Part shown: piece after piece, positions 23,671-46,977 of the stretch
Numbering within the stretch: the stretch's first letter is position 1
Layout of the letters: each line of letters starts with the position of its first letter
From: Parasphingopyxis sp.
GTDB lineage: Bacteria; Pseudomonadota; Alphaproteobacteria; Sphingomonadales; Sphingomonadaceae
Length of the DNA: 64,000 nucleotides
Assembly: GCF_028279465.1 (NCBI RefSeq)
Contig: NZ_JANQNS010000005.1
Span: 1-64,000, forward strand
Reading direction: 5' to 3'
Notes under the pieces: generated by a model
Told to the model about the DNA's origin: nothing
The model's input: the letters and a program-made list of their open reading frames with translations, nothing else
Database searches by the model: none
Program-made: the position numbers and the translations under genes

Positions 23671-24111
23671 TCAGCGGCGAGCCTCAAATTCACCATGAAC
23701 TTCGAGGATCGTTCTACAGGGCTTGAAGCCGGACGCTTCCGCGAGTTGGACGAGTCGATCGACAAGATCGGGCGCTGGCGCTGAACCAACCAGATGCCCC
23801 GACCCGTCGATCAAGCAGATGTCACCCGCTTCCTGCTTGATTACGAAGGCCGAAAGCGATTCGATGCGGCTGACCCTGTCTTGTTCGATCAATCGAGCGA
23901 GCGTGCGATAGACTTGCGCGGGGAAGAGTTTTTTTCCGGTTTTGGCCGAACGTGCCGCGATATCATAGGCGCTCATGGGAGCGTTCGCCCGAGCAAGAAC
24001 ATCAAGAATGATCAGTTCAATTTCTTCGCGTGAGCGGCGCAGGCCAGAATCGCAAGGATGGCGCAGCGACGAGCTTCCGGAGCCTCGCACCGTACGATTG
24101 GCCGCCGGCAT
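23671..24111 (-). CDS. Zur/Fur-family protein with most metal ligands lost
   Basis: A 146-residue winged-helix protein that aligns with E. coli Zur: SAYDIAARSAKTG (helix), LFPAQVYRTLARLIEQDRVSRIESLSAFV (recognition helix and wing), then a C-terminal dimerisation domain ending GFKPCRTILEVHG. The DNA-binding half is well kept, but the zinc residues are not. The Cys after the wing (YVLC in E. coli Zur) is Lys92, the CxxC is C99-L-I-D102, and the C-terminal CxxC is FEAR. Only C99 and H139 remain of the usual ligands. It starts 2 bases after hisI stops and closes the cysS-yidD-cobW-hisI operon. It could be a metal-blind paralogue, a modulator of a true Zur encoded elsewhere, or a diverged sensor. 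No clear ribosome site; coupling to hisI is likely. Confidence 0.75.
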   Translation of the reverse strand: MPAANRTVRGSGSSSLRHPCDSGLRRSREEIELIILDVLARANAPMSAYDIAARSAKTGKKLFPAQVYRTLARLIEQDRVSRIESLSAFVIKQEAGDICLIDGSGHLVGSAPAPDLVDRLVQLAEASGFKPCRTILEVHGEFEARR

Positions 24112-24113
24112 AA

Positions 24114-24611
24114 CTACAGCCGCGTCGGGTTGGGCAGCCCTGCATAGACTGCATCGGCGTCGAACGCGCGCTCGGGTTCGATGTGTATCAGCTTGACGGG
24201 AGCGTCGGCACCAACCGATTTCAGATCGATTTCGCGATAGAAACAGGATTTGTAACCGACATGGCAGCTTCCCGGACCCTCGATACGCACAAACAGAATG
24301 AGGGCATCCTGATCGTCATCGATCAGTATCCGTTCGACGGCCTGAGTGAAGCCGCTATGCTCGCCTTTTCGCCACAACGTTTCGCGGCTGCGCGACCAGA
24401 AATGCGCCTCGCGGGTAAGCAGCGTCTGCTCCAGCGCCTCAGCGTTCATATATCCGAGCATTAGCACCGACTGATCCGCAGCGTTGATCACAATGACCGG
24501 CGAGAGGCCCTCGGCATCGAAGCGCGGGGCCAGCTCGTCGCCAAGCTCGACCTGCTCGACGCTGGTGCGATCCGCAAACGGTACGCTCGATCTGGTCACG
24601 CTTTGCTCCAT
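24114..24611 (-). CDS. hisI: Phosphoribosyl-AMP cyclohydrolase, HisI2-type paralogue
   Basis: A 165-residue enzyme of histidine biosynthesis (PR-AMP ring opening). Signature stretches: VLMLGYMNAEALEQTL, HFWSRSRETLWRKGEHSG, and GPGSCHVGYKSCFYRE. In standard HisI three Cys bind the catalytic zinc. The second and third (C116, C123) are present, but the first, in the DCDGD motif, is replaced: residues 98-102 read DDDQD, so Asp99 stands for Cys. That pattern fits the HisI2 paralogues reported in COG0523/Zur contexts. It overlaps cobW by 16 bases and is followed at once by the Zur-like gene. Presumably a backup for a zinc-dependent HisI elsewhere. Confidence 0.88.
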   Translation of the reverse strand: MEQSVTRSSVPFADRTSVEQVELGDELAPRFDAEGLSPVIVINAADQSVLMLGYMNAEALEQTLLTREAHFWSRSRETLWRKGEHSGFTQAVERILIDDDQDALILFVRIEGPGSCHVGYKSCFYREIDLKSVGADAPVKLIHIEPERAFDADAVYAGLPNPTRL

Positions 24612-25855
24612 TCAGATGGTGGTGTGGTGAGTTTGGCATCCAAACTGCTCGAACCGAGCGGCAAGAGTTCTGGATTTGCACCTGTCAGGCCCGAACCTTC
24701 CGGCCCATAGACTTCAAAGCGCGAAATAGGCTGCGTCAACACGACGAGCGTCTCGCGCAACACCCGTTCGTCGATGTCGCGTGTGATGAAAACGATGCGG
24801 CTGCGATGATCGTCACTGGGCCAGGCATCGAGCATGACCGGTGGATGAAAGATGTTCTGCACACCATGGATCACCATGGGTCTGTCGAACCCCGCAAGAT
24901 TCAGGATGCCCTTCACCCGCAGAATATCGTGGCTCGCAAACATCATCAGAATATCGAGCCAGCGCTCCAGAGCTTCCGCTTCCAGCGGCTCGTCAAACGT
25001 CAGGCACAGCGAGCGGATATGATCGTCGTGACGGTTGACGTCATGATGATGGTCGTGTGCGTCACCATGATCGTGCTCGTCACACTGTTCATCTTCGCCA
25101 TGATGATGGTCGTGCGCGTCATGCGTGTGATCATGGTCATGATGGTGATGATGCGGCGCCTCATAGGCTTCGGCGCTCAGCCAGGCTTGGACGGTCTCGC
25201 TCTTCGTGGCGGGGTCGTAGAGTCCCGCGCCAAATAATTGCTGCGTTTCGACCTCGCCGTTGATCACCGTAATGAGCGGCGCAGCCGGATTGATCGTCCG
25301 AAGCCTGTCCTTGAGCTGCGCTGCCTCGCTTTCGCTTACGAGATCGGTCTTGGTCAGCAGCAAGCGATCGGCGACTGCGGCCTGGCGCACCGATTCCTCT
25401 TGCCGGTCGAGCGTATCCATGCCCGTTGCGGCGTCCACGGTGGTGATGACACTGTCCAATTGGTAGAGCGGTGCGATCTCCTCATCGGTCATCAGCGCGT
25501 GGAGAATCGGCATCGGATCGGCGAGACCGGTGGTCTCGATCACGATGCGATCGAACCAACAGTCGCCATTGCGGGCATACCGCCATGGCGCGTCGCGTAG
25601 CGTGCGGACAAGATCGCCACGGATGGTGCAGCACAAGCAACCACTGGACATCTCAACAACCGTATCATTGTCACCAAAGGCCACGAGGTCATGGTCGATG
25701 CCGATCGAGCCGAATTCATTGATGATGAGCAGCGCCTTGCTCATCTCGGGAGACTGCACGAGATGGTTGAGCAATGTGGTCTTGCCGCTGCCGAGAAAAC
25801 CGGTCAGCAGCGAAATGGGGATCGGAGCCTGAGCGCCGGTGCGGATAGCACTCAT
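24596..25855 (-). CDS. COG0523 (CobW/ZigA-like) G3E GTPase with His-rich loop
   Basis: A 419-residue putative zinc metallochaperone. Walker A is GFLGSGKTT (19-27), the COG0523 metal motif GCLCC is at 72-76, IETTGLADP is the switch region, and TKTD (168-171) gives guanine specificity. Residues about 235-279 are an extreme His/Asp stretch (over 20 His), a likely zinc store. The CobW C-terminal domain follows (SLCLTFDEPLEAEALERWLD ... RILRVKGILNLAG-like segment). ATG at 25855 has AGGAG 9 bases upstream; a longer frame would run into yidD. These GTPases hand metal to client enzymes during zinc shortage. It lies in an operon with cysS, yidD and hisI2. Confidence 0.92.
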   Translation of the reverse strand: MSAIRTGAQAPIPISLLTGFLGSGKTTLLNHLVQSPEMSKALLIINEFGSIGIDHDLVAFGDNDTVVEMSSGCLCCTIRGDLVRTLRDAPWRYARNGDCWFDRIVIETTGLADPMPILHALMTDEEIAPLYQLDSVITTVDAATGMDTLDRQEESVRQAAVADRLLLTKTDLVSESEAAQLKDRLRTINPAAPLITVINGEVETQQLFGAGLYDPATKSETVQAWLSAEAYEAPHHHHHDHDHTHDAHDHHHGEDEQCDEHDHGDAHDHHHDVNRHDDHIRSLCLTFDEPLEAEALERWLDILMMFASHDILRVKGILNLAGFDRPMVIHGVQNIFHPPVMLDAWPSDDHRSRIVFITRDIDERVLRETLVVLTQPISRFEVYGPEGSGLTGANPELLPLGSSSLDAKLTTPPSEWSKA

Positions 25856-25916
25856 TGCATAAACTCCTGGCGCAGTTTGTCGCAGGCGTAGAGTCGCAGT
25901 GACAACGGTTCGTTCA

Positions 25917-26150
25917 TCAATCGATCTTTCTCGAACGGATCGGCGGGACAGGATCGTACCCATGGCCGCCCCAAGGGTTGCAGCGCAATATGCGCCATAC
26001 TGACAAGGCGCTGCCGCGCAGCAGTCCGTGGCGCGCGAGCGCTTCTACGGCATAGGCTGAGCAGCTCGGCTGGAAGCGGCATGTCGGCGGGGTGAGCGGG
26101 GAGAGCCAACGCTGGTATCCGCGGATGAACGCAATCAGTATCCGCGTCAT
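25917..26150 (-). CDS. yidD: Membrane protein insertion efficiency factor YidD
   Basis: A 77-residue YidD: an amphipathic N-terminal helix ([38 protein letters not shown]) with the conserved C-x5-CS-Y and the [13 protein letters not shown] ending. It assists YidC/Sec-dependent insertion of membrane proteins. Its ATG overlaps the cysS stop (ATGA), so it is translated with cysS. It is usually beside rnpA/yidC; here it sits between cysS and cobW. Confidence 0.95.
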
Positions 26151-27526
26151 GCCATCCGCCTCCAGGCCGTACCGTCGGGTGTATCGTCCAAAAGAACGCC
26201 CATTCCCGTCAGCATGTCCCGCAAGCGGTCAGCCTCCGCAAAGTCACGCGCAGCGCGCGCGGCTTCCCGATCGGCCACGAGCCGCTCGATCGTCGCATCC
26301 ATGGCGTCATTGTCATTCGCGCCCGTAAACCAGTGTTCGGGATCGGCCTCGATCAGTCCGAGCATGGCGCCCGCCTCCATCATCGCCGCTTTGATCGCAG
26401 CGCGTTCTGCTGGGTCCGACGCCTTGTGCGCGGCCTTCGCAAGGCCGAACAGCTCGGCGAGCGCTGTCGGGGTGTTCAAGTCGTCGTCGAGCGCCGCGTG
26501 GAAGGGTTCGAGTCGATCCCCTGCCTCGGTCGGCGCAACGTCGCTAAGGTCTCGCATCGCGCCGTAGAGCCTGTCGAGCCCGCGCCGGGCATCGCCCAGG
26601 CTGCGTTCGGAGAGGTCGAGCGGCCGACGATAATGGGCCGACAGCAGCGCCAACCGGATCGCCTCGCCCGGCACATCTTCCAGCAGCTCGCGCACCAGAC
26701 GCACATTGCCGAGCGACTTGGACATCTTGGCGCCGTCAATCGTCACAAAACCGTTATGGACCCAGTAGCGGCAATAGAGTTCGCCATCATGCGCGCAGGT
26801 GCCCTGGGCTATCTCATTTTCGTGATGCGGGAAGATCAGATCCTGCCCGCCGCCATGGATATCGATCGAGTTCCCGAGATGATTCTCGATCATCGCCGAG
26901 CATTCGATATGCCAGCCCGGTCGACCGCGCCCCCAGGGGCTATCCCATCCCGGCTGATCGCCGGATGAGGGTTTCCAGAGCACGAAATCTGCGGGATCGC
27001 GCTTGAACGGGGCCACCTCGACGCGCGCACCGGCCCGCATCTCGTCGAGGCTGCGACCGGACAAGCGGCCATAGTCTGGGAAGCTCGCGACCTCGAACAA
27101 CACGTGACCTTCAACCACATAGGCGTGGCCATTCTCGATGAGCGCGCTGATCATGCCGATGATATCGGGTACATGATCGGTGACGCGCGGCTCGACATCG
27201 GGCGTCAGCACCCCGAGTGCCGCCATGTCCTCATGATAAGCGTCGATATATTTGGAGGTGACAGTGCCGATCGGTATTCCGGCTTCCTCGGCGGCGGTGT
27301 TAATCTTGTCATCGATATCGGTGAAATTGCGTGCGTATGTCACACGCGGGAAGCGCCGCTTCAGGACGCGGTAAAGAACATCGAAAACGACGGCGGGCCG
27401 GGCGTTGCCGACATGGGCATAATCGTAAACCGTTGGCCCGCACACATATAGCGTAACGTGCGCCGGATCGGTGGGCACAAAGACTTCGCGTTGTCCGCTG
27501 AGCGTGTTGGTGAGTGTAAGGGGCAC
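26147..27526 (-). CDS. cysS: Cysteinyl-tRNA synthetase
   Basis: A 459-residue class I aminoacyl-tRNA synthetase. The HIGH-type motif is [18 protein letters not shown], and KMSKSLGN is the KMSKS loop. The zinc ligands that discriminate cysteine are all present: Cys in [10 protein letters not shown], Cys in WHIECSAM, and His/Glu in FPHHENE, so unlike its neighbours this enzyme is still a zinc protein. First gene of the leftward zinc operon, starting about 50 bases from the Zur-like box shared with folE2. Whether it is the only cysS of the genome cannot be told. Confidence 0.96.
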
Positions 27527-27833
27527 GGCTTTCTGCTTCTTGACCTTCCAGATTTTAGATTGGTTGCGAACTTCACAAGATATAATATAACATATTCAAT
27601 AACAAGAGGTCGAAAGGACGATGTAGCGTAAGATTTTCGCCGATCATATATGAGCTGGAGTGATGACGAAGCGATTTGGCGAACACAATATCGTTTGCCG
27701 CCAATCCACTTTCGCTCGGCATCTGGAAACTGTTTGATCGAATAACCAAATCACGATGAATTCATGATCCGCTAAATCAGCGGGCTTCCTTCCCAAGGCA
27801 CTGACTCAACACGGAGCAGCGCCGCAACCGGAT
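27527..27833. other. Divergent cysS-folE2 promoter region
   Basis: A 307-base AT-rich stretch between divergent genes. It contains the Zur-like box (27579-27593), 53 bases from the cysS start and 240 bases from the folE2 start. No other gene or RNA was recognised. Confidence 0.55.
27579..27593 (+). promoter_or_regulatory. Zur-like operator A (cysS operon / folE2)
   Basis: GATATAATATAACAT. The inner TATAATATAACAT agrees at every fixed base with the TATANTATAACAT portion of the Zur consensus I know from proteobacteria, and the flank continues ATTC. Differs at one base from the box in front of the TonB receptor gene at 42.5 kb. Confidence 0.7.
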
Positions 27834-28736
27834 ATGAACATGCTTGCAAATCTTCCCGATATTTCCCGTTCCGACACCGTCCCCGCGCAAAGCCCGTTGG
27901 CCTGGGTGGGCATGGAGGGCATCGATCTGCCCATACTCGTTACCGAACCCGGCTATCGCCGTGATGTGCATGCCCGTATCGACGCACTGGTCGATCTGCC
28001 GTCGCCCGAAGTGAAAGGCATTCACATGTCGAGGCTGTATCGCTTGGTCGATACGCTGGCAGATGGCGATCCGTTGACACCGGAAGGGCTGAGAGTGCTG
28101 CTGGACCAAATGGTCGAGAGCCATGAAGACTGCGGCAGCGGCAATGCGCGCCTGCGGATCGGCTTCGACCTGCTTGTGAGTCGCTCGGCGCTGGTAACCG
28201 AGGGCCTTTCGGGCTGGAAGTCCTATCCGGTGAAAATTGAAGCCTCGCTGGTCAACGGGACCTTTGCCTGCCAAGCGGAAGTACGCGTTGAATATTCCTC
28301 AACCTGCCCCTGCTCGGCTGCATTGTCGCGACAGCTAATTGAGCAGAATTTTCTCGATACATTCGGTAAGGAAGGAACGGTTGCCCCGAGCGAGGTTGCC
28401 GCTTGGCTTGAAAAAAATGCTTCGATGGCGACTCCGCACAGCCAGCGCAGCGAGGCACATGTCACGGTCGAGATCGACTCCGCAGCGACCGGCTTTGGGC
28501 TGCTGGTGCTAATCGACGAGATTGAGGCAGCGGTAGGGACGCCGGTGCAAACGGCAGTCAAGCGCGCCGACGAGCAGGCCTTCGCCGCGCTCAACGGGCA
28601 GAATCTGATGTTCGTCGAGGACGCAGCACGGAGGATTGAGGATATGTTGGGCGACTATCGCGGCGCGAAGGTTTACGTCCGGCATGTTGAGAGCCTCCAC
28701 CCACATGACGCCGTAGCATGGGCATCCCCGAGCTAA
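27834..28736 (+). CDS. folE2: GTP cyclohydrolase IB (FolE2, zinc-independent)
   Basis: A 300-residue enzyme making 7,8-dihydroneopterin triphosphate from GTP for folate and related cofactors. FolE2 can use Mn or Fe where FolE needs zinc. Family marks: [11 protein letters not shown] (60-70), the [17 protein letters not shown] stretch with the conserved Cys at 158/160, and the C-terminal [13 protein letters not shown] ... [14 protein letters not shown]. Length is normal. Reads away from the Zur-like box and is followed after 24 bases by the dihydroorotase gene. In Pseudomonas and other bacteria folE2 is a classic Zur target that replaces FolE in zinc limitation. Confidence 0.95.
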
Positions 28737-28760: not shown

Positions 28761-30086
28761 ATGGCCGGATCAAACCCTGAACTCGTTCTCGCTGGCGGCA
28801 CGGTCCACACGCCGGCCGGTTCGGACGTCGCCGACGTCGCGGTGCGCGACGGGAAGATCATCGGGATCGGGAGCTACCGTGAAGCAGCCCGGCGCATCGA
28901 CTGCACGGGGCTCGATGTGCTGCCCGGCGTCATCGATTCCCAGGTCCATTTCCGCGAACCAGGGCTCGAGCATAAGGAAGACCTCGAAAGCGGCAGCAAA
29001 GCGGCCGTTCTGGGCGGCATCACGGCGGTGTTCGAGATGCCGAACACGTCGCCCAATACAGATTCTGCTGACAGAGTTGCGGACAAGCTCAAGCGCGCGC
29101 ACCATCGCATGTTCTGCGACCACGCATTCTATGTCGGTGCCACCGGCGCCAATGCCGAAGAGCTGGCCGAGCTTGAACGAATCCCGGGCACAGCCGGGGT
29201 CAAGGTCTTTATGGGCGCCTCGACCGGCGATCTACTCGTCGCCGAGGACGAACCGCTTGCGCGGGTCTTGGCGAGCGGATCGCGTCGCGTTGCGATCCAC
29301 GCCGAGGATGAGGCCCGGATGCAGGCCCGCCTCGACCGGCGGGTCGAAGGCGATCCGGCGAGCCATCCGGTCTGGCGTGACGATGAAAGCGCGATGCTGG
29401 CGACGAAGCGCATCATCAGCCTCGCGCGCGGCGCGCGAAGGCCGATCCACATTCTCCATATCAGCACCCCTGCCGAATTCGAGTACATCGCCCAGCATCG
29501 CGACATTGCGACCTGCGAGGTCACCCCGCAGCACCTGACGCTCGCCGGCGAGGAGGCGTATCCGAGCCTCGGCACCTTCGCGCAGATGAACCCACCGATC
29601 CGCAGCAAAGCGCATCGCGAGGGCCTATGGCACTGGCTGCGCCAGGGCGTGCCTGATGTAATCGGCTCGGACCATGCGCCACACACGCGCGAAGAAAAGG
29701 CGAAAACCTATCCCGATACGCCCAGCGGCATGCCCGGTGTGCAGACCCTGTTACCGCTGATGCTCGATCATGTTGCCAATGGGCGGCTTACCCTCGAACG
29801 GCTGATCGAGATGACCAGCACCTCTGTGCAGCGCGTGTTCGGCCTTGTCAGCAAGGGCCGGATCGCCCCAGGCTACGATGCCGATTTCACCGTGGTTGAC
29901 TGCGCGGGCAGCTTCACGATCACGGAAGACTGGCTGGCCAGCCGCTGCGGCTGGTCGCCCTTCACGGGCATGGAGCTGCAAGGCCGCGTGATCGGCACGA
30001 TCATACGCGGTCATATCGGCATGTGGGAAGCCGAACTCGCTGAAACAGCGCAAGGCGAGCCCCTGCGGTTTGCATCCGCCTTGTAG
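28761..30086 (+). CDS. pyrC: Dihydroorotase PyrC2-type, HxH motif altered
   Basis: A 441-residue class I dihydroorotase (pyrimidine synthesis, carbamoyl-aspartate to dihydroorotate). Metal-site motifs: GVIDSQVHFREPG, where the usual D-x-H-x-H reads D59-S-Q61-V-H63, so the first His ligand is Gln; GVKVFMG with Lys148; VAIHAEDE (H180); HILHIST (H230/H233); and IGSDHAPHT (D304). Everything but the first His is normal, including the NPPIRSKAHREGLW substrate loop. Follows folE2 by 24 bases, as in zinc-limitation clusters with a second PyrC. The family may also be the housekeeping enzyme of alphaproteobacteria, where I recall the same QVH variant; paralogy needs the genome. Confidence 0.88.
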   Translation: MAGSNPELVLAGGTVHTPAGSDVADVAVRDGKIIGIGSYREAARRIDCTGLDVLPGVIDSQVHFREPGLEHKEDLESGSKAAVLGGITAVFEMPNTSPNTDSADRVADKLKRAHHRMFCDHAFYVGATGANAEELAELERIPGTAGVKVFMGASTGDLLVAEDEPLARVLASGSRRVAIHAEDEARMQARLDRRVEGDPASHPVWRDDESAMLATKRIISLARGARRPIHILHISTPAEFEYIAQHRDIATCEVTPQHLTLAGEEAYPSLGTFAQMNPPIRSKAHREGLWHWLRQGVPDVIGSDHAPHTREEKAKTYPDTPSGMPGVQTLLPLMLDHVANGRLTLERLIEMTSTSVQRVFGLVSKGRIAPGYDADFTVVDCAGSFTITEDWLASRCGWSPFTGMELQGRVIGTIIRGHIGMWEAELAETAQGEPLRFASAL

Positions 30087-30155
30087 TTTTCGTTCGGCCT
30101 GATCTTGCTAAGGTCGATCCGCTGATAATATTTGAATGATGTAGAGAGGTACCCG

Positions 30156-30383
30156 ATGAACCAGTCACCCGTTCTGAACACCTATGACGATTGGAAGCAT
30201 TGCATAACGGTATCCTGCGGCATTCCGCTTACGATGGAGTATGTGGAAGCGCGTATGGCGGCACTGGCCGATAAGAGCGCCTATGGAACCATGCGGTTCG
30301 TCGAGGTATGGGGCGAGCGCCATCTCGAACAGGTCAAGGAATGGTTCGCACAAGCGCACCGTGAGCTTTCGGACCAGACGTAA
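30156..30383 (+). CDS. Small conserved protein after pyrC
   Basis: A 75-residue soluble protein, start set at the ATG with GAGAGGT 7 bases upstream (a TTG eight codons earlier has no ribosome site). Visible pattern: YDDWKHCITVSCGIPLTMEY with two Cys six apart, then a predicted helix MRFVEVWGERHLEQVKEWFAQAHREL. Seventy bases after pyrC on the same strand, so likely the third gene of the folE2-pyrC unit. Family not recognised. Confidence 0.65.
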   Translation: MNQSPVLNTYDDWKHCITVSCGIPLTMEYVEARMAALADKSAYGTMRFVEVWGERHLEQVKEWFAQAHRELSDQT

Positions 30384-30425: not shown

Positions 30426-30917
30426 TCAGGGAAACTGCGCCTGCTTCAATCCATCATTGGCACCGAAGATCACTGTTCGCACGTTCGTTCCGCGCGTAAA
30501 ATTGACGCGATTCTCCTGACGCGGCCAGACGTCTGTCAGGATTTGCGAATTGACCATGATAGTCGCATCAGGGGCCGGTACCGGCGCGTCCTGATAGACC
30601 CAAAGAGTGCCGCCTTCGATCTCCGACCCAATGAACGTCAATGATATCGGCTCGCCATCGATCACCAGTTCAAAGCGATTGGCCACATATTCGGCGAAAG
30701 CCTGTCGGCTCTCGGCGCTGCCAATAATATCCGCAGAGTTGCGGCCTTGAAGACGGAGGGCATGCTCCGCATCATGCGCCGGGATCTGGTGCATGATCTC
30801 CAGTCGATCGACACGCTCGTTGATCGCGATCGTCGTGATGGCCAGCTTTTGCTGATGCGCAGACGCTGGCTGCGCGACCAGACACAGCATCAGTATGGCG
30901 ATGGCGTAGCGGATCAT
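30426..30917 (-). CDS. Secreted DUF6702-like protein, partner of M1 peptidase
   Basis: A 163-residue exported protein: signal peptide MIRYAIAILMLCLVAQPASA|H, then a beta-rich domain beginning HQQKLAITTIAINERVDRLEIMHQIPAHDAEHAL, similar to DUF6702 proteins. Its ATG overlaps the stop of the M1 peptidase gene (ATGA), so the two are translated together. The His pair near the mature N-terminus is the only metal-like feature. Function unknown. Confidence 0.72.
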   Translation of the reverse strand: MIRYAIAILMLCLVAQPASAHQQKLAITTIAINERVDRLEIMHQIPAHDAEHALRLQGRNSADIIGSAESRQAFAEYVANRFELVIDGEPISLTFIGSEIEGGTLWVYQDAPVPAPDATIMVNSQILTDVWPRQENRVNFTRGTNVRTVIFGANDGLKQAQFP

Positions 30918-35957: not shown

Positions 35958-35972
35958 ATGATATATTATCTC
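35958..35972 (-). promoter_or_regulatory. Zur-like operator C (zigA-type gene)
   Basis: Minus-strand reading GAGATAATATATCAT, flanked by TTC. Two differences from operator A. It lies 25-39 bases upstream of the COG0523 start, where a repressor would cover the promoter. Confidence 0.62.
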
Positions 35973-38428: not shown

Positions 38429-40363
38429 ATGAAGAAAGTTCTCACCGCCATTCTCTTGGTCTCCAGCGCGACTGCATTCGCGCAGGACGATGGTGGCGAA
38501 GCCGTTGCTCCGCGGCCGGCAGCTGTCGTTGCCGACGGCATTCCCGCCATCCCGCAACAGCTGGTCAATGAAACGCAGCCCTATTTCGAATATCGCACCG
38601 CGGCCTTTTCGGAGTGGGACCCGCAGACCCGGGCAATGTATGTCGCCACACGCTTTGGCGATACCGCCCAATTGCATCGTGTCGCTGCCCCCGGCGCGGC
38701 GCGTACGCAGCTCACCTTTGAAGCCGAACCCGTACGCGGCGTGTCGGTGTCTCCGGGCGCCGGCGATGTCAGTCTCATATCGAAGGATATCGGCGGAAAC
38801 GAATTCTTTCAGATTTTCCAGCTCGAAGATGGCAGGCTGACGATGTTGACCGATGGCACGAGCCGCAACAGCCTGGGCGCGTGGATGCCAGATGGTTCGA
38901 TGGTGGCGTTCAGCTCGACCCGGCGTAACGGGCGCGACACCGATCTCTATCTCATGGATCCGCGCGATCCCTCTACCACGCGCATGCTTGCTGAGCGCGA
39001 GGGCGGCGGTTGGTTCGTCGTAGATTTTACACCCGATGGCAGCACGGCGCTGGTGGTCAATTATATCTCCGTCACGAATATGGAACTCTACCATATCGAT
39101 GTGGCATCGGGTGAGGTCACGCAGCTGACCCCCGAAGGCGCTTCGGTCGCGTTCAGCGGGCTCCAATATGCGCCGGACGGCCGCCTTTGGGTGGCAAGCG
39201 ACGAACGTTCAGAATTCAAACGCCTCGGCACGTTCGATACGGCCAGTGGCGTGTTCGAGCCGGTTATCGAAGAACCCTGGGATATCGTCGATTTCGACAT
39301 TTCGGACGATGGCCAAACCATCGCCTATGAAGTCAATGCGGCCGGCCGCTCTGAGCTCAAGCTCTATGATATCACGACCGGCAATATCCGCGAAGTCGCG
39401 CTGCCGCCCGGCACGCTCGGCGGGCTCGAGATTGCGCCTTGGGGTGATGTGGGTATGACTTTGGTCTCGAACCAGGGCGCGGCCGATGCCTATAGCGTCG
39501 ATCCCGAAACACTGGCTCTTACCCGTTGGACCAATAGCGAGATGGGCGGCCTTGATGCACAAGCGAATGTGTTGCCCGAACTCATCGAGATTGAAAGCTT
39601 CGACGGGGAGCCAATGTCGGGCTTTCTCTATGCGCCCGATCCCGCGCGCCATCCGGGCCCGCGCCCATTGCTGGTCAACATCCATGGCGGGCCGGAAAGC
39701 CAGGCAACAGCGCGCTTTCTTGGCCGCAATAACTATCTGATCAACGAGCTGGGTATCGCGATCTTCTACCCGAACGTGCGGGGATCGACGGGCTATGGCA
39801 AACGCTTTGTCAGCCTCGATAATGGCCCGTTCCGGCGCGAGGATTCAGTGCGCGATATCGGTGCATTTCTCGATCGGCTAGAAGATGATCCGCGCATCGA
39901 TGCGAACCGCATCGGCGTCACCGGCGGCTCCTATGGCGGCTATATGTGCTATGCCAGCGCCATTCGCTATGGCGAGCGCCTGCGCGGTGCGAACTGCATC
40001 GTCGCAATCTCCGATTTCGTCACGTTCCTCGAAAACACACAAGACTATCGCCGCGATTTGCGCCGCGTCGAATATGGCGACGAGCGCGACCCCGAACAGC
40101 GCGCCCAATTGAGAGCGATCAGCCCGCTGACCCGCGCTGACGAGATTCGCATCCCGCTGATGGTAGCGACTGGCGCCAACGACCCCCGCGTTCCTGCATC
40201 CGAGGCCGATCAGATCATCGAAGCGGTGCGCGCCAATGGCGGCGAAGCCTGGCACTTCCTCGCCCAGAATGAAGGCCACGGGTTCGCCAGGAAAGAGAAT
40301 GCCGACTATTTCTATTGGGCAACGATCCTGTTCTGGCGGAGACATTTGCTGGGCGGCGATTGA
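38429..40363 (+). CDS. Secreted S9-family prolyl oligopeptidase-like serine peptidase
   Basis: A 644-residue protein with signal peptide (MKKVLTAILLVSSATAFA|Q), an N-terminal beta-propeller of WD40/PD40-like repeats (residues about 60-370), and an alpha/beta hydrolase domain. Catalytic triad by motif: Ser501 in GGSYGGYMCY, Asp585 in GANDPRVP, His617 in EGHGFARK. Resembles the acylaminoacyl/dipeptidyl peptidase group. Good ribosome site GAGGA. Same direction as the M3 peptidase before it, probably one operon for peptide breakdown. Converges with the TonB receptor gene. Confidence 0.93.
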   Translation: MKKVLTAILLVSSATAFAQDDGGEAVAPRPAAVVADGIPAIPQQLVNETQPYFEYRTAAFSEWDPQTRAMYVATRFGDTAQLHRVAAPGAARTQLTFEAEPVRGVSVSPGAGDVSLISKDIGGNEFFQIFQLEDGRLTMLTDGTSRNSLGAWMPDGSMVAFSSTRRNGRDTDLYLMDPRDPSTTRMLAEREGGGWFVVDFTPDGSTALVVNYISVTNMELYHIDVASGEVTQLTPEGASVAFSGLQYAPDGRLWVASDERSEFKRLGTFDTASGVFEPVIEEPWDIVDFDISDDGQTIAYEVNAAGRSELKLYDITTGNIREVALPPGTLGGLEIAPWGDVGMTLVSNQGAADAYSVDPETLALTRWTNSEMGGLDAQANVLPELIEIESFDGEPMSGFLYAPDPARHPGPRPLLVNIHGGPESQATARFLGRNNYLINELGIAIFYPNVRGSTGYGKRFVSLDNGPFRREDSVRDIGAFLDRLEDDPRIDANRIGVTGGSYGGYMCYASAIRYGERLRGANCIVAISDFVTFLENTQDYRRDLRRVEYGDERDPEQRAQLRAISPLTRADEIRIPLMVATGANDPRVPASEADQIIEAVRANGGEAWHFLAQNEGHGFARKENADYFYWATILFWRRHLLGGD

Positions 40364-40406: not shown

Positions 40407-42479
40407 TTAAAATGTATCCGAGACAGTAAGCGTCAGGAAAGTGCGGCGGCTGCGCTCGACGACCTCGCGCCCGGTCAGCATACCGGATCGGTCCGGGGCG
40501 AAGAAGCGGCGTTCGAACGGAAAGCCGCGGCCGCCCACATTTGTCGCTTCAAGCCGTGTTGTGACGCCGAGAAATCGTGTCGTTTCGACAAAGATCGACA
40601 GGAACGTGTCGCGTGCGCTGAAGATTTCCTCGTCGGCGAAAAATTCCTCGATGTCGGTGCGGGGCGCGAAATCGAAACCCCAGGAGAAACGCAGCCGTTC
40701 GATATCGTGGCGGAAGGAGATATCGATATCCGGATTCTCGAAATCGGTGACGGCTCGCACCTGTCCCGTGATCGGATCGGTGAACTCGGCTTCGGCAAGA
40801 TTGATCGTGCCTTCGAGCAGGGCGCCGGGCAGGATGGCGGTGAGCGGCAGGGCGAAAGTCGTCTCGATGCCGCGGACTTCGGCCGATCCCGCATTGCCGA
40901 CGCCAAAGGCGCCCGATGGTAGCAGGATTTGCTCGAGCACATCCTCGCGCCATTCCTGATAGGCTTCGACGCTCAGTGCGAAGCCCGATGGCAGGCGCCA
41001 GTCGAAAGAGGCGCTGAGCCGGGTCGTCTGATCGGGGCCGAGCGCCGGATTACCGGCCAGTTCGCGATCCTCATCGGAATCGGCCGATGCGGCAAAATCG
41101 GCGAAATCGAGCTGCCCGACGGTGCGGCGGACCGCGAGCCGCAGCTGCAGCCTGTCCGACGCGCGATAGTTGATCGCGAGATTGGGTTTCAGGAAGGTGA
41201 AGCTCTGCTGGTTCTCGGCGTCGCCGGAGACGCTGATCTCGGAAAATTCGACGGCCAGCCCGCCCTCGATCGTCCAGGCCGGAGCGGGCACCCAGGTGAG
41301 ATTGGCGAAGGCTTCGCCGCGCAGCTCCTCGACCAGCACATCGGCCGCCGGCAATATGACGGGCACCCCGGCATTGGCGATCGAAAGCGCGCTATCGAGC
41401 CGGTTATAGGCGACTTCGAAACCGGTCTCGGGCCGCAGCGACGCATTCCCGCCCCGGCCTATCGTCACGCGGCCAAGCAGTTCGATCGGGAGCCGATCGA
41501 GCGCGAAGGTCGAATCGACCGGATCAGCGCCGATCGGGTCCTCGACGGTTGAGAGGTTGGACTGGCTGGCATCCTGGATCGATCCGAGGCCGATAAGCTT
41601 GAGCGACCAGCCGCTCCCAACCGGCCGCGTCCATTCCGCACTGAACTCGCCTTCGAAAAATTCGCTGTCGAAATTGATCCGGCGCAGATCGATGGGCGTA
41701 TCGGGGCTGGTGCGGGGCAGCGCCACGCCGGTGCGCACCGTATTGCGTTCGAAACTGCTATAACCGAAGCGCGTATTGAGCGTCAGTTCGCCACCGCCCA
41801 GCGGCCGCGAGGCCTCAATCGATACGAAAATCTCGCCGAGCGAACTGGGCGCCGTCTCGTTCTGAAAACTCACAAGTTCATCGTCGGCGTCGATATTTCG
41901 GCGGGTAAATGTCTTCCAGGGGAAGCGTTCCCAATAGCCGTTGATCCGGGTGGTCGTTTCCCAACGCCCGAGCGGCCGGGAGAGCGCGAGTTCCGCGCGT
42001 GGATAGAATAGCCCGTCCGGCGCGCGTTCGATCTCGACCGACCAACTCCCCGAGCGCGCGCCTTCCAGCAGCACGACATTGGCGACGATGCCTTGTCCTG
42101 CCGTCTCGCCGGCCGGGCCGCCACCCCGGATCAGCTCGATACGTTCGACCGATCCTGCAGGGATGCGTTCAAGCACTTCTTCGAGCCCCGTTTTGGTCGA
42201 CGCGCGCTGCCCATCGATCAGCACATTGCCCGCGCCGGCGCCGAAGCCGCGCAGATCGTCATCGCCCGTATCGAGCGTGAAACCCGGAACGCGTTCGAGA
42301 ATATCGAGCGCGGTTTGCGGGTTGAAGCGATCGAAAAAGGCGCGCTCGAACTGGGTGCTGGAATCCGTCTCAGCGGCGGATTGCGCCTGAGCGGTATAGG
42401 TTGGCGCGGCGCAGCACAGCGCAGTCGCGAAGAACGACGTTGCGCAATGGATGAAGATTCGTTCGCCTGAAGGTCGCAT
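40407..42479 (-). CDS. TonB-dependent receptor, candidate zinc importer
   Basis: A 690-residue outer membrane receptor. Signal peptide MRPSGERIFIHCATSFFATALCCAAPTYTAQA; plug domain with ALDILERVPGFTLDTGDDDLRGFG, NVLIDGQRAS, LERIPAGSVERIELIRGGGPAGETAG; then the barrel, ending in Phe (TLTVSDTF). The start at 42479 (GGCGGCGGA upstream) is used because the longer frame extends through the box and the neighbouring methyltransferase gene. A Zur-like box lies 17-31 bases upstream of this ATG, and the inner-membrane transporter genes follow upstream on the same strand. Zinc as substrate is inferred from control and context, not from the barrel. Confidence 0.88.
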   Translation of the reverse strand: MRPSGERIFIHCATSFFATALCCAAPTYTAQAQSAAETDSSTQFERAFFDRFNPQTALDILERVPGFTLDTGDDDLRGFGAGAGNVLIDGQRASTKTGLEEVLERIPAGSVERIELIRGGGPAGETAGQGIVANVVLLEGARSGSWSVEIERAPDGLFYPRAELALSRPLGRWETTTRINGYWERFPWKTFTRRNIDADDELVSFQNETAPSSLGEIFVSIEASRPLGGGELTLNTRFGYSSFERNTVRTGVALPRTSPDTPIDLRRINFDSEFFEGEFSAEWTRPVGSGWSLKLIGLGSIQDASQSNLSTVEDPIGADPVDSTFALDRLPIELLGRVTIGRGGNASLRPETGFEVAYNRLDSALSIANAGVPVILPAADVLVEELRGEAFANLTWVPAPAWTIEGGLAVEFSEISVSGDAENQQSFTFLKPNLAINYRASDRLQLRLAVRRTVGQLDFADFAASADSDEDRELAGNPALGPDQTTRLSASFDWRLPSGFALSVEAYQEWREDVLEQILLPSGAFGVGNAGSAEVRGIETTFALPLTAILPGALLEGTINLAEAEFTDPITGQVRAVTDFENPDIDISFRHDIERLRFSWGFDFAPRTDIEEFFADEEIFSARDTFLSIFVETTRFLGVTTRLEATNVGGRGFPFERRFFAPDRSGMLTGREVVERSRRTFLTLTVSDTF

Positions 42480-42495
42480 TCCGCCGCCGTTTGCG

Positions 42496-42510
42496 GATAT
42501 AGTATAACAT
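42496..42510 (+). promoter_or_regulatory. Zur-like operator B (TonB receptor)
   Basis: GATATAGTATAACAT followed by CTC; one base from operator A. It occupies the 55-base gap between the methyltransferase stop and the receptor ATG, the only AT-rich patch there. Confidence 0.68.
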
Positions 42511-42534
42511 CTCAAAGCGGACGCAAGAGAACGG

Positions 42535-43227
42535 TTAGGCGTGCATGCTCCAGCCTCGCCAGGAAAAACCAGCATAGAAGAGCCCGATGCGGCTAAAGCC
42601 TGCTTCTGCAAAAAGCGCCGCATTGCGCTCCGGCGTCGCCATATTGAGATGCCCCTCGCGAATATGGCTTTCCGCCTGACGGACATCGTCCGGATCGGCA
42701 CCGGATGCGCCTGCAAATCGCGCATAGCGGCCAAGCGCCACGTCGAAATCATCGGCGGTCTGGTCCATGCAGAGATCTGCAAGGACAAATGGCGCACCCG
42801 GCGTGAGCCGCGATCTGATCGATCGAAGCGTCTCCAGCTTCGCGCCGTCATCGGGAACGAAATGCAAAGTCAGCAGACATGTGGCCGCGTCGAACGGTCC
42901 GTCGGGCGCATCATCGACTACGCCCTGTATCCAGTCGACGCGCTCGTTATCACCCTGATCAGCCATCCTGTAGCGCGCCGCTTTCAGCATCTCTTCGGAC
43001 GGATCGACGGCACAAAAACGCCAGCCTTTATGGCCCGTAGCAAGACGGGTCAGTTCATGCCCGCCACCCGCGCCGATGATAAGAACCGACCCATTGTCGG
43101 GAACGGTTTCGGCGAGCAATAGATCCGCCATGCGATGCAGGCTCTCGAAGCCCGGCACGAATCTGGAAGGACCGCGTTCGACATAGCGCTTTACGAAATC
43201 TTCTTCGTCGAAATGCTCGGTGACCAT
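42535..43227 (-). CDS. Class I SAM-dependent methyltransferase
   Basis: A 230-residue Rossmann methyltransferase. SAM motif I is VLIIGAGGGHEL (about 48-59), motif II acidic CAVDPSEEMLKAA, and motif IV DAATCLLTLHFVPDDGAKLETL. The start at 43227 has GAGAGGA upstream; the longer frame has none. Lies between the DUF3299 gene and the TonB receptor gene, all on the same strand. The substrate is unknown. It could modify a metallophore or be unrelated to metal. Confidence 0.82.
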   Translation of the reverse strand: MVTEHFDEEDFVKRYVERGPSRFVPGFESLHRMADLLLAETVPDNGSVLIIGAGGGHELTRLATGHKGWRFCAVDPSEEMLKAARYRMADQGDNERVDWIQGVVDDAPDGPFDAATCLLTLHFVPDDGAKLETLRSIRSRLTPGAPFVLADLCMDQTADDFDVALGRYARFAGASGADPDDVRQAESHIREGHLNMATPERNAALFAEAGFSRIGLFYAGFSWRGWSMHA

Positions 43228-43279: not shown

Positions 43280-43774
43280 CTAGCCGCCGATCTGCCGGGC
43301 GTTGATGAGACGGTAGAATATGCCGCTCTCATCCCGACCCGTCAGCCGGAGCGTTCCGGTCAATGTGATGGCGTCCATCTCTTCCACCGGTATTGGCGTC
43401 GAGGTGCGGACCTCGATGAACTGGTTCGGCAGGGCATGGAGATGGAAGGGGCATCCTGGCGGATAGGCGAGCAGCACGAAATGGCTTTGGCGCGCCGAAT
43501 TTTGCAGCGGCATCATCCAGCCGGCGACGCGCACCGTCCGTCCATTGAGCGCGCGAACGCGACTGGGAAATTCGGGACGCGAATAGATCATGTTGTTTTC
43601 GCCGCGCCGGTCGATGACGCGGGTGCTTTCGAGCAACGACCAGGCGACGCCGCCGCGCGGCGTTTCGGCCGGTCGCCAAATACCGTGCTGCTGCGCTTCA
43701 GCCGTTTCGACGGACACGAACAGGATACTGGCCGTTGCGAGCATGACGGCGATCAATTTGGCAAATAGGGGCAT
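43280..43774 (-). CDS. Secreted DUF3299 protein of the zinc ABC system
   Basis: A 164-residue periplasmic protein with signal peptide (MPLFAKLIAVMLATASILFVSVETAEA|Q). The DUF3299 core includes FPSRVRALNGRTVRVAGWMMPLQNS and the CPFHLHALPNQFIEV segment with Cys and two His. DUF3299 genes accompany MacB-like ABC genes in the zinc-responsive PA4063-4066 and zrgABCDE loci. Begins 11 bases after the permease stop. Confidence 0.82.
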   Translation of the reverse strand: MPLFAKLIAVMLATASILFVSVETAEAQQHGIWRPAETPRGGVAWSLLESTRVIDRRGENNMIYSRPEFPSRVRALNGRTVRVAGWMMPLQNSARQSHFVLLAYPPGCPFHLHALPNQFIEVRTSTPIPVEEMDAITLTGTLRLTGRDESGIFYRLINARQIGG

Positions 43775-43785
43775 CGCCTTGTCTC

Positions 43786-45219
43786 CTAGGTAGCGCGCGC
43801 GAGTATACGGGTTAGGTCGGCGCGGAACACTCGCCAGGCCGGTATCAGCGCCGCAACCACGCCGATCGCGATCACGAGCAGTACGATGGTGATTTCAGCG
43901 GGTTCGAAATGCAAGGGGTCGAGACCCATTTCCTGCACCGGCCGGAACATGGAGGCTGCCACGGCCAGCAGGCCATGACCAAGCAGCAGGCCGAGTATCG
44001 CCCCGGCCGTGGCGATGATCACGCCCTCTGCGATGATCGTTCCAAACACCTGAAGCTTGTTAGCACCCATCATCCGCAGCAGTGCGAGTTCGCCCTCGCG
44101 TGCGGACGCGGCATTGAGCAGTGCGACAAAGATCGACAGCCCACCGATCAGCGCGAGCAGCCAGCCAAAGAGTCGCGCACCGTCAATACCCACACCGAGC
44201 ATCGAGAGCAGCCGCGTCGTCTCGACGGCCGGCACGGCGGCCTGCATATCCGTCTGCCGGTTGATCATGCTCGGCAGGCGGACCGCGCCTGCCGCCGAAC
44301 GATAGGTGACCAGCAATGCCGTCACTTCGGGCGCAAGCGCATCGGGCCGTTGGAAACCACCGGCGCGCATCGGTTGCTCCTCAGCCGGCTCAGCGATGGC
44401 CGCTGGCGCGTCATCATGGGCATGCGCACCATGGGCATGCGCACCGTGGTCATGGGCTCCATGATCGTGCGCTTCGTGGTCGTGCGCGCCGTGATCGTGC
44501 GCTTCATGGTCATGACTGTGCGCGGCCTCGCCATGGTCGTGAGCCTCGTGATCATGGCTGTGACCATCCTCGCCATGATCGTGATCTCCATGGGCGTGAT
44601 CATGCTCGATGCCATGAACATCCCATACCGTCTCGACCGAGACGAGGATCAATCGATCCATAACCGTGCCGGTTGGCGCGAGGATGCCCACGGTCTCCAT
44701 CGGATGATGTTCATGCGCGCCGCCATCGTCCCCAACGAGTCCATGGCTGCCGACGAACTGCTGGCCCAGGGTCACCCCCGTTTCCTCGGCGACCTTCGAG
44801 CCGAGCACGGCCTCGCTATTGGCCGTGAACATACGCCCCTCGGCGAGTTCGGCATCGTAAAGCTGCGCATAGCTTTCCTCGGTGCCGACGATCCGGAAGC
44901 CCCGGAAATTATCGCCGAGCGCGACGGGAATGACTCGCGCGACGGCCGGGTCGCCACGCAGCAGATCGATGCTCGAAAGCGGAATATTCCCGGTCGGCAT
45001 GTCGACATGATAGACGCTGGAGAGGATAAGCTGCAGCGGCGATCCCTTGGCGCCGACGACCAGATCGATGCCTTGTGCATCGCGCTCGAACCGGTCGCTC
45101 ATCTGGGCCGAGAAGTTGAGCAATATCACGAGCATCGCGACCGCAAGGCTCAGCAGCAGCACGTTGAGCGCGGACAGCAACGAGCGTTCGCGCAGATAGG
45201 CAAGGGCGAGGCGCAGCAT
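43786..45219 (-). CDS. FtsX/MacB-type ABC permease with large His-rich periplasmic loop
   Basis: A 477-residue permease with four main helices: LLSALNVLLLSLAVAMLVILL near residue 20, then FGWLLALIGGLSIFVALLNAAS, EGVIIATAGAILGLLLGHGLL and EITIVLLVIAIGVVAALIPAW near the C-terminus. The large periplasmic domain between helices 1 and 2 carries a His/Asp/Gly/Ala repeat at about 200-272, with more than 25 His in some 70 residues. The rest follows MacB/LolE permeases. Start overlaps the ATPase stop (TGATG). The His tract argues for zinc binding. By synteny it corresponds to the permease of the PA4063-4066/zrg-type systems. Confidence 0.88.
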   Translation of the reverse strand: MLRLALAYLRERSLLSALNVLLLSLAVAMLVILLNFSAQMSDRFERDAQGIDLVVGAKGSPLQLILSSVYHVDMPTGNIPLSSIDLLRGDPAVARVIPVALGDNFRGFRIVGTEESYAQLYDAELAEGRMFTANSEAVLGSKVAEETGVTLGQQFVGSHGLVGDDGGAHEHHPMETVGILAPTGTVMDRLILVSVETVWDVHGIEHDHAHGDHDHGEDGHSHDHEAHDHGEAAHSHDHEAHDHGAHDHEAHDHGAHDHGAHAHGAHAHDDAPAAIAEPAEEQPMRAGGFQRPDALAPEVTALLVTYRSAAGAVRLPSMINRQTDMQAAVPAVETTRLLSMLGVGIDGARLFGWLLALIGGLSIFVALLNAASAREGELALLRMMGANKLQVFGTIIAEGVIIATAGAILGLLLGHGLLAVAASMFRPVQEMGLDPLHFEPAEITIVLLVIAIGVVAALIPAWRVFRADLTRILARAT

Positions 45220-45884
45220 CAGGCCGCCACCGCCGTTTCGAGCGACTGCAATTCGATGGCTGCGGGGATGTTGTCTTTCAGCCGGGCATCATGCGTGGCG
45301 ACCAGCAGCGTGGCGCCCATATCGTCTGCCGTTTTCAAAAGCAGCTCGGCAACCTTGCCCGCATTGGCATCGTCCAGCGCCGATGTCGGCTCATCGGCGA
45401 TCAGCAGAGCCGGTTCGGCCACCAGCGCCCGCGCAATCGCGGCGCGCTGCGCTTCGCCCTGGCTCAGCTGTTTCGGCCGTTGATCGGCCAGCGTCTCGAT
45501 ACCGACCGCCTCGAGCAGGGTCATCACTTTGTCATTGTCGCGCGCAACGCCGGACAGTTTTTGCGCGAGCAATAGATTCTGCCGCACGCTGAGCGCGGAG
45601 ATCAGGCGCAGTGTCTGGAAGATCACCGCGATCTTTCGGCGGCGAAGATCGTCGCGCGCGGAAGCGGAAAGGCCGCTCATCGTCTCGCCATCGACAGTGA
45701 TGGTGCCGCTATCCGGAGACAGTAGACCTGCCACGAGGTTGATCAGCGAGGTTTTGCCGCTCCCCGACGGCCCAAGCAGCAAGGTATGATTGCCCGGATC
45801 GAGACTGAGCTGGAAATCGTTGAATATCTCGCGCGACCCAAAGCTGAGGCGCAGATCGGATATCTCCAGAACCGGCGACGCCAT
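45219..45884 (-). CDS. LolD/MacB-type ABC ATP-binding protein of the zinc system
   Basis: A 221-residue ATPase. Walker A GPSGSGKTSL (38-47), Q-loop VIFQTLRL, signature LSQGEAQRAAIARAL, Walker B LLIADEPTSALD, H-loop LLVATHDARL. Length fits LolD/MacB ATPases. One-base overlap with the permease. It follows the small secreted protein gene by 17 bases. Confidence 0.93.
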   Translation of the reverse strand: MASPVLEISDLRLSFGSREIFNDFQLSLDPGNHTLLLGPSGSGKTSLINLVAGLLSPDSGTITVDGETMSGLSASARDDLRRRKIAVIFQTLRLISALSVRQNLLLAQKLSGVARDNDKVMTLLEAVGIETLADQRPKQLSQGEAQRAAIARALVAEPALLIADEPTSALDDANAGKVAELLLKTADDMGATLLVATHDARLKDNIPAAIELQSLETAVAA

Positions 45885-45901: not shown

Positions 45902-46210
45902 TTAACGAAAAGTCGCTGCGTCTTCAGGATTATAGGCGGTGTCTACCGGTTCGCTGCCGGACGCATCATCCTCGACCACTTCGTCGTCGAACGTATCGTT
46001 AATCGTGCTGAACCGAATATACCGCATGCCCGCCATATTATCGTGGCTTGCAGCGGGCCCGTTATTCGCCATGGGTGCCAAATGATCGCCGCTCAGCAGC
46101 GAAAGGTTCGAGAAATTCACATGGCCGAACATTCCGTGAAACGCACAGGCATGTGCCGTCGACGGAATGACGATGGCAGCCGCAGCGATCAGGATTTTCA
46201 GTTCACGCAT
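45902..46210 (-). CDS. Small secreted protein at the head of the ABC operon
   Basis: A 102-residue exported protein. The ATG at 46210 has GGAG 7 bases upstream. Signal peptide MRELKILIAAAAIVIPSTAHA, mature start CAFHGMFGHVNF, then an acidic C-terminal half (FDDEVVEDDASGSEP). The Cys-His and Met/His residues near the mature N-terminus (HGMFGH, GDHLAPM, ASHDNMAGM) could hold metal. It sits where zrg/PA4063-type loci encode a His-rich periplasmic protein but shows no clear similarity to DUF2796. Not recognised otherwise. Confidence 0.7.
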   Translation of the reverse strand: MRELKILIAAAAIVIPSTAHACAFHGMFGHVNFSNLSLLSGDHLAPMANNGPAASHDNMAGMRYIRFSTINDTFDDEVVEDDASGSEPVDTAYNPEDAATFR

Positions 46211-46365
46211 TTTCAACTCCACAACTACGCCTCAGATAGAACATCCAGTGCGAATTCTCAAGCCTTTGGCCAGATTCCGCTGGGTCGGACGGCGCGCCCA
46301 AAAACGCGCTCGGCGAACCGCGCGGGCCGCGCCCCGCGCGTGATTACTGGAAACTTGACCTTGAA

Positions 46366-46380
46366 ATGATACCTTATCTC
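46366..46380 (-). promoter_or_regulatory. Zur-like operator D (DUF1826 / ABC operon)
   Basis: Minus-strand reading GAGATAAGGTATCAT, continuing TTC as in the Zur consensus end. Two to four differences from the other three boxes. It is 40 bases before the DUF1826 ATG and 156 bases before the secreted-protein gene on the other strand. Confidence 0.55.
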
Positions 46381-46419
46381 ATCATTTGCGGAGCGAACAT
46401 CCATAATGCGTAAGGCGAG

Positions 46420-46977
46420 ATGACCAGGATTTGCACCGACACGATCGTGGATTGGCGACACATCCAGGATCCCGCTTGCTCGCTGGCAATCGAAGACCGG
46501 CCCGTGCCGATCAGCCGGCAAACCATCGATACCATGCTCGGCCATGGCGCCTTTTACAGGATAGCGGACGGCACGCTTGCGGCCATTGAAGCGGAGTTCG
46601 CCGATCTGCCGTCCGATTTACGCGCGGATATCTTGCATCTGGGCGGCCGCTTTCGAGACCTGATGCAGGTGGAGACGATCCGCGTGCGGCTCGAAGTCGT
46701 CACGACCAATGCGTGCCAGAAGGTCCATGCCGACTTCACCGACGTGCGCCTGATCACGACATACGCTGGACCCGGTACCGATTATGCGGCCGATGACGAT
46801 CCGGGTTGCTGCCTCGAACGGATGCCGGCTGGCTGGATCGGCCTGTTCAAGGGCCGCAGATTCGGCCCCGGACATGCCCCGCGCCTCCACCGGTCTCCGC
46901 CCATCGAAGGCATGGGCGAAGACAGGCTCGTCCTCGTCATCGATACGCCCATCTTCGCCTCGGACCCGCTGACCTGA
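46420..46977 (+). CDS. DUF1826-family protein
   Basis: A 185-residue soluble protein matching DUF1826: RVRLEVVTTNACQKVHADFTDVRLITTYAGPGTDYA in the middle and GLFKGRRFGPGHAPRLHRSPPIEGMGEDRLVLVIDTP near the end. The HAD...H arrangement (KVHADF and LHRSPP) resembles a 2OG-oxygenase-like metal site, which is inference. DUF1826 genes are known companions of COG0523 GTPases in Zur-regulated clusters. Divergent from the ABC operon over a Zur-like box. Confidence 0.82.
   Translation: MTRICTDTIVDWRHIQDPACSLAIEDRPVPISRQTIDTMLGHGAFYRIADGTLAAIEAEFADLPSDLRADILHLGGRFRDLMQVETIRVRLEVVTTNACQKVHADFTDVRLITTYAGPGTDYAADDDPGCCLERMPAGWIGLFKGRRFGPGHAPRLHRSPPIEGMGEDRLVLVIDTPIFASDPLT

Follow-up and report, generated by a model that had tools for sequence, protein, structure and literature searches.

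A Zur paralog devoid of zinc ligands within a predicted zinc-limitation island of Parasphingopyxis sp.

Zur is commonly viewed as one switch that zinc alone operates. The start of contig C8 in the 3.3-Mb genome of a Parasphingopyxis strain, a stretch of 64 kb referred to here as the window, contains a 23-kb zinc-limitation island (positions 23671–46977 of the window) that carries a Zur-like gene of its own, named here zurL (23671..24111, minus strand). An earlier note on this DNA had listed the gene as Zur-like. Does its product sense zinc, and if not, what could such a protein do among genes of the zinc response? The ligands of both zinc sites of Zur are missing from ZurL and residues that read DNA are kept, and the Zur regulon of this bacterium thus seems to include a gene for a relative of Zur that is blind to zinc.

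A Zur relative without zinc ligands

The ZurL protein misses the Pfam FUR family (PF01475, 14.9 bits versus a cut-off of 23.1) and matches the NCBIfam Zur family weakly (NF008646, 33.8 versus a cut-off of 167). It aligns with Zur-type structures, namely 7DH7 (E 1.1e-5), annotated merely as 'Transcriptional regulator fur family', and 4MTD, the Zur of Escherichia coli (E 0.0027). In an alignment referred to E. coli Zur (L220), the four residues of the regulatory site (site B), His77, Cys88, His96 and Glu111, are replaced in the window copy by S, K, A and S, whereas the structural Cys4 site is represented by D, G, F and a gap, all four Cys being lost. The shortened loop of the window copy holds one Cys and no His. 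The base-reading residues Tyr45 and Arg65 are retained. As the ligands are gone and the canonical Zur of the genome is encoded outside the island, on contig C13, zurL was rejected as the zinc-sensing regulator of the island; judging from these residues, ZurL is unlikely to be a zinc-sensing Zur. An artefact of the sequence was rejected as well, since site-B loss is found in 21 other ZurL rows.

These rows come from several searches. A nine-row profile was run against 397 genomes of the family and matched 31 of them at E 1e-25 or better. Inspection of the ligands by eye divided these into 18 with a ZurL and 13 with a canonical Zur only; given this cut, 18 of 397 is a lower bound. Two plasmid copies (Sphingomonas parapaucimobilis NZ_CP155750 and Novosphingobium resinovorum NZ_CP128493) and two copies from outside the family (Gemmobacter aquarius NZ_CP028920 and genome G359) bring the ZurL set to 22. 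The class search, in which 219 of 385 genomes had a match and 30 loci were read, yielded at least one ZurL outside the family. The plasmid search matched 139 records, of which the three best and one E. coli record were read, and the plasmid ZurL are therefore at least as many as counted here. A scan of genome contigs with ZurL found no relative. Among the best 80 of 297 loci matching cobW1, a COG0523 GTPase gene of the island, the ZurL profile found two Zur-like open reading frames (ORFs); that of L145 is canonical and that of L156, from Pleomorphomonas, is borderline. The latter lies near a COG0523 gene and has lost three of the four site-B ligands, His77 being retained; it was left out of the ZurL counts.

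Of the four ligands of site B, no ZurL row among the 22 keeps more than one. At this site the loop spans 11–13 residues versus 16–18 in canonical rows, and some members carry one to three Cys/His within it. The structural Cys4 site is intact in 20 of the 22; the window copy has lost it entirely and the copy of genome G083 lacks one residue. Tyr64 and Arg65 are present in all 22 rows and Tyr45 in 21. A tree (IQ-TREE, 86 rows, bootstrap not fully settled) gathers 19 sphingomonad ZurL, including the window copy, in one clade (100/96) that is separate from 35 resident Zur (92/85). Within this clade, Arg22, Gln62, Tyr64, Arg65, Arg69, Leu70 and Glu138 are invariant, Tyr45 is found in 18 of 19 members and positions 92–95 are absent from all. 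Five of the seven invariant residues fall in the recognition helix of E. coli Zur, which extends from Pro60 to Glu72 (PMC4219657, in part). Outside the clade, the ZurL of G691 (L109) is placed next to the resident Zur with a branch length of 4.9. The Gemmobacter pair (L139/L076), whose branches are long too, is found in another part of the tree. Such placements might reflect loss of the sensor more than once; independent losses are possible, and so is a long-branch error.

Predicted Zur boxes and recurrence of the cluster

In relatives, palindromes of the GTTAT-N3-ATAAC type are found upstream of the cluster genes; the Zur motif of Caulobacter is GTTA-N5-TAAC (PMC4176598, in part). A 19-base matrix was made from 13 cluster-promoter sites of relatives that were chosen by eye, 11 from ZurL loci and two from the flanks of those loci, and none from the window. 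The top four sites that this relatives-only matrix predicts in the 64 kb are 27576..27594 (24.2 bits), between the divergent cysS and folE2; 35957..35975 (21.2 bits), upstream of zigA; 46365..46383 (16.6 bits), between the divergent DUF1826 gene and ABC transporter run; and 42493..42511 (13.0 bits), the weakest of the four, close upstream of the TonB-dependent receptor gene. All four are island promoters, and the next non-overlapping site reaches 11.5 bits. The best score among the sites of a Markov copy of the window (200 copies) averaged 12.9 and never exceeded 21.4; sites of at least 14 bits numbered 0.285 per copy on average and two at most, versus three in the window. As an independent check, the matrix was applied to 34 canonical zur genes of the family, none of which had been used as seeds, and 18 of them have a site of at least 13 bits within ~1.5 kb.

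On the scale of the genome, the pattern GWTATAWTATAAC, with one mismatch allowed, occurs at 4 strand places versus 8 for its reversed control. Another pattern, devised after the four sites had been viewed, gives 13 strand hits versus 12 for the reversed control; 4 of its 11 sites lie inside the island (post hoc binomial 8e-7), this clustering being its sole support. A third near-perfect genome box (C7:364237, 12.5 bits) overlaps phage-like frames (by eye) and was set aside as probably due to chance. Two more Zur-type sites were observed in the genome. One, outside the window (L233, G000:C12:87111, 17.5 bits), falls where a MerC-like gene begins, and a gene nearby probably encodes an alpha-type carbonic anhydrase (both by eye). 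The other (L228, G000:C7:420118, 20.1 bits) lies downstream of a gene that probably encodes an adenosylhomocysteinase (by eye) and has no clear target gene.

The families of the island recur around zurL in relatives. Indeed, 19 of the 21 non-window ZurL loci have an island-family gene within 10 kb, two of these 19 (G152 and G765) having a single one. DUF1826 is found near 14 of the 21 loci, zigA near 13, cobW1 and the ABC ATPase near 10 each, the permease and DUF3299 near 9 each, hisI2 near 4, and the M1 and M3 peptidases near 3 each, those with M3 being G736, G691 and S. parapaucimobilis. A site of at least 13 bits is found upstream within 6 kb in 20 of the 21, a count that is not independent of the seeds chosen by eye. 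In the two loci without island genes (G083 and G704), zurL is divergent from a TonB-type receptor gene (by eye), and a site coincides with the receptor start or precedes it. The ZurL-bearing clusters are found on plasmids of three named species, and a cobW1 relative at E 1e-20 is present in this genome alone among 10 from the genus, 7 of which reach 90% completeness with no more than 5% contamination; the island looks accessory.

Two observations on gene neighbourhoods can be added. A MerC gene is beside zurL in G083 and one gene away in S. parapaucimobilis. The plasmid of Gemmobacter aquarius (L139) carries a hisI–zurL pair, a metal ABC transporter, three COG0523-type genes and DUF1826, with sites of 24.0 and 23.1 bits.

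Because four Zur-box sites lie at island promoters, one of them weak, and because the same gene families recur together in relatives, the island has the look of a single regulon of the Zur type in which sparing, delivery and uptake are brought together. The earlier note had proposed such a regulon, and on this point the sequence comparisons agree with it.

What ZurL may do

The explanation that best accounts for the whole, to which we give about an even chance, is that the island is controlled by the canonical Zur and that ZurL is a zinc-independent brake. When zinc is plentiful, Zn-Zur made from contig C13 would sit on the four boxes and keep the island silent; when zinc is scarce, the boxes would be freed. 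FolE2, HisI2, PyrC2 and the second CysS would then substitute for, or supplement, zinc enzymes, the two COG0523 GTPases would distribute zinc, and the TonB receptor, together with the His-rich ABC system of MacB type, would import it. Since zurL would close the first operon, which stands behind a Zur box, ZurL would be made only once Zur has left that box. ZurL could then occupy Zur boxes or near-variants of them irrespective of zinc, thereby limiting over-induction. If this is true, sensor-less but DNA-reading Zur relatives standing behind Zur boxes would provide the zinc response with its own feedback protein. A more general proposal is possible but tentative: alphaproteobacterial zinc islands would carry a dedicated zinc-blind second regulator that derives from a non-resident Zur, is expressed by its own target regulon, travels with the island (also on plasmids), has lost its sensor more than once (19-member clade, Gemmobacter type and G691) and acts as a zinc-independent brake or memory.

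Several points weigh against such a brake. E. coli Zur no longer binds DNA when it carries either C88S (site B) or C103S (site A), and without site A it does not dimerise either (PMC4219657, in part); by this rule, neither dimers nor DNA binding would be expected of the window ZurL. At backbone-contact positions, ZurL departs from E. coli Zur, position 28 being Asp/Glu in 21 of 22 ZurL and also in some canonical rows, and the structure of ZurL predicted without an alignment is unusable (mean pLDDT 40.7). The boxes raise difficulties too. The one at the TonB receptor is not significant on its own and is retained for its position, the matrix scan gives no site of 13 bits near the canonical zur of the Parasphingopyxis genome, and 12 of 19 ZurL loci have a site within ~1.5 kb, no clear excess over the canonical zur genes examined at the same distance. 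The window zurL has no site within this distance, its box being ~3.5 kb off, across the gene run.

Streptomyces apo-Zur forms a dimer but shows no DNA binding (PMC11077047, in part). Taken together with the E. coli mutants, this behaviour leaves two routes: either ZurL has evolved zinc-free binding, which we favour, or it is a poison subunit. The latter is the main rival explanation, which we regard as somewhat unlikely. ZurL would be dominant-negative, forming mixed Zur–ZurL dimers unable to close on DNA, and the island would stay on by positive feedback. The Cys4 site kept in 20 of the 22 rows suits this mechanism, and a Zur lacking site B would resemble a permanent apo-subunit. However, a pure poison subunit would have no need of the base-reading Arg65 and Tyr45 that nearly all rows keep, and the window copy lacks the very Cys4 site that E. 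coli Zur needs for dimerisation. A poison subunit is therefore plausible for the Cys4-bearing relatives but less so for the window copy. Because the base readers are kept and five invariant residues lie in the recognition helix, DNA binding, on which the zinc-independent brake depends, is favoured over a pure poison role.

Another rival, which we consider unlikely, is that ZurL now answers to a different signal or recognises other DNA sites, such as those of only part of the island. Two positions of the recognition helix speak for this idea: position 62 is Gln in 19 of 19 clade members, whereas Ser/Thr prevails there in the 63 canonical rows (50, with Gln in 9), and position 69 is Arg in 19 of 19, whereas the canonical rows more often have Leu (35) than Arg (6). 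The Cys/His in the shortened loop of some members could likewise serve another signal, but the loop of the window copy is nearly bare of them. Furthermore, the cluster sites fit the same matrix that finds canonical zur loci, and no distinct second DNA motif was found, although no systematic search for one was made.

That the window zurL is a decaying relic of a formerly functional paralog seems improbable. It is the sole row of the 22 in which the whole Cys4 site is lost, and its branch is long (2.24); yet its frame is open, it starts 2 bases from hisI2 and it retains the residues that are invariant in the clade. It is very improbable that the genes of the island are chance neighbours: although we know of no zinc link for the iron-type alcohol dehydrogenase (Fe-ADH), S9 peptidase, yidD and methyltransferase genes, and only this one of the 10 genomes of the genus has a cobW1 relative, four sites stand at four promoters, none elsewhere in the window scores as high, and the same families recur together in relatives.

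Genes of the island and comparison with known systems

All the genes named by the earlier note are present, with family matches for HisI, two COG0523 proteins, CysS, FolE2, dihydroorotase, DUF3299, permease, ATPase, TonB receptor and DUF1826. It made no mention of yidD, Fe-ADH, the M1 peptidase–DUF6702 pair, the M3 and S9 peptidases and the methyltransferase. Operons are predicted here from gene spacing. The minus-strand run that ends with zurL is tightly packed (gaps of -4, 79, -16 and 2) and comprises a cysS copy (26147..27526; TIGR00435, 517 bits), yidD (25935..26150; PF01809, 108.6 bits), cobW1 (24596..25855; PF02492), whose COG0523 GTPase has a His-rich insert (20 His in 70 residues), and hisI2 (24114..24611; PF01502, 100 bits), which encodes a phosphoribosyl-AMP cyclohydrolase paralog. 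Divergent from it, on the plus strand, are folE2 (27834..28736), of the zinc-independent GTP cyclohydrolase family, the dihydroorotase paralog gene pyrC2 (28761..30086; NF006559, 703 bits) and a small ORF (30132..30383) with a homologue that adjoins cobW on Novosphingobium pHR1a.

Are these enzymes zinc-free replacements, as the earlier note had it? FolE2 belongs to such a family (NF010200, 299.7 bits versus a cut-off of 215), and one zinc-type FolE is encoded outside the island. The claim may apply, at most in part, to HisI2 and PyrC2. In HisI2, Asp replaces the Cys of the DCD motif, the first of the three Cys of the housekeeping copy, and the two other Cys are retained; these Cys bind zinc in HisI. 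The same Asp is found in three other readable zurL-linked HisI2 (G088, Gemmobacter and G359), a fifth copy (L118) being incomplete. In PyrC2, Gln replaces the first His of the HxH motif, giving QxH, and the other motifs look retained (by eye). The claim fails for the island CysS, which retains in alignment Cys, Cys, His and Glu at four positions that we take to be the zinc ligands of E. coli CysRS. CysS and HisI each have one further genomic copy above the family cut-off. Two further PyrC, named by eye, are encoded elsewhere in the genome: one is PyrC'-like, adjoins a pyrB-like gene and scores 270.7 bits, below the cut-off of 279, and the other is of the E. coli type.

In the middle of the island, the minus strand carries zigA (34707..35933; PF02492), the second COG0523 gene, whose product is marginally below its family cut-off (NF038288, 596.3 versus 600 bits), then the Fe-ADH gene (33402..34529) and those of an M1-family peptidase with a signal-peptide-like start by eye (30914..33325) and a DUF6702 protein (30426..30917). 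Divergent from zigA, on the plus strand, are genes of an M3 (Dcp-like) peptidase (36217..38370) and an S9 peptidase (38429..40363). The M1, DUF6702 and M3 proteins were assigned by family match; Fe-ADH and S9 are counted in the island by position only. Homologues of both members of the M1–DUF6702 pair (30426–33325) are found near zurL in G016 and G169, and G016 has a Zur-type site ~300 bases upstream of its M1 gene (L036 7115, 19.7 bits). The pair is possibly an unrecognised Zur target for zinc recovery. The peptidases point to recovery of zinc from protein as a possible further branch of the zinc response.

On the right, the minus strand carries genes of the TonB-dependent receptor (40407..42479, this shorter start being preferred over that of the ORF reaching 42851), a methyltransferase (42535..43227) with a 46% identical homologue in the S. 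parapaucimobilis cluster, a DUF3299 protein (43280..43774, 32.6 bits), a MacB-like permease whose His-rich insert has 26 His in one 70-residue stretch (43786..45219), an ABC ATPase (45219..45884) and a small protein, exported by eye, without a family match (45902..46222); the ATPase and permease are family matches. The DUF1826 gene (46420..46977, 98.8 bits) is on the plus strand. ZnuA has no match in the genome at E 0.01, a search that is positive in 11 of 14 control genomes. The G+C content of the island (~0.56–0.63 in 2-kb steps) is slightly below that of the window ends (0.60–0.64), and the stretch just before the island is likewise low.

The island had been put forward as an undescribed system, but nearly all of its named parts occur in described Zur clusters. 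The Zur-regulated COG0523/paralog clusters of Pseudomonas fluorescens and Cupriavidus metallidurans reported by Haas et al. in 2009 share with it the FolE2, PyrC, HisI and CysS paralogs, COG0523 and DUF1826 (PMC2770081, in part). This type of cluster is thus already described, as is the PA4063–PA4066 system (PMC10393844, in part). Two differences concern the 2009 clusters: their HisI paralogs are reported to keep the zinc residues, whereas the four readable zurL-linked HisI2 have Asp for the first Cys, and neither a ligand-less Zur paralog nor M1/M3 peptidases are mentioned for them in the sections of PMC2770081 drawn on here.

The right part of the island resembles PA4063–PA4066 of Pseudomonas aeruginosa in having the ATPase, MacB-type permease and DUF3299 genes side by side. 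This is presumably also the gene order of PA4063–PA4066, in which we take PA4066 to be the DUF3299 protein. The latter genes form a zinc ABC system in which PA4063 has a solved structure (PMC10393844, in part), whereas the small protein of the island matches none. Considered as a PA4063 homologue, this protein has no Pfam match, and its best match in the PDB is RHS2 (E 0.2). Unlike in PA4063–PA4066, the His-rich stretch is in the permease. The Zur regulon of Caulobacter, which is not among the control genomes with ZnuA, is similar in its GTTA-N5-TAAC-type box and its use of TonB receptors for uptake, but its gene table, as far as covered by the extract of PMC4176598, contains no sparing paralogs and no second Zur, unlike the island. 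Among the open-licence papers listed in a literature search, none dealt with a Zur paralog lacking the regulatory site or with one inside such clusters. As for the protein itself, ZurL shares with E. coli Zur (4MTD) and 7DH7 the winged-helix region and the base-reading Tyr45/Arg65, but differs from them in its missing regulatory site, its shorter loop and, in the window copy, the missing structural Cys4 site, which makes the ZurL family natural test material for asking which zinc site Zur needs for DNA binding.

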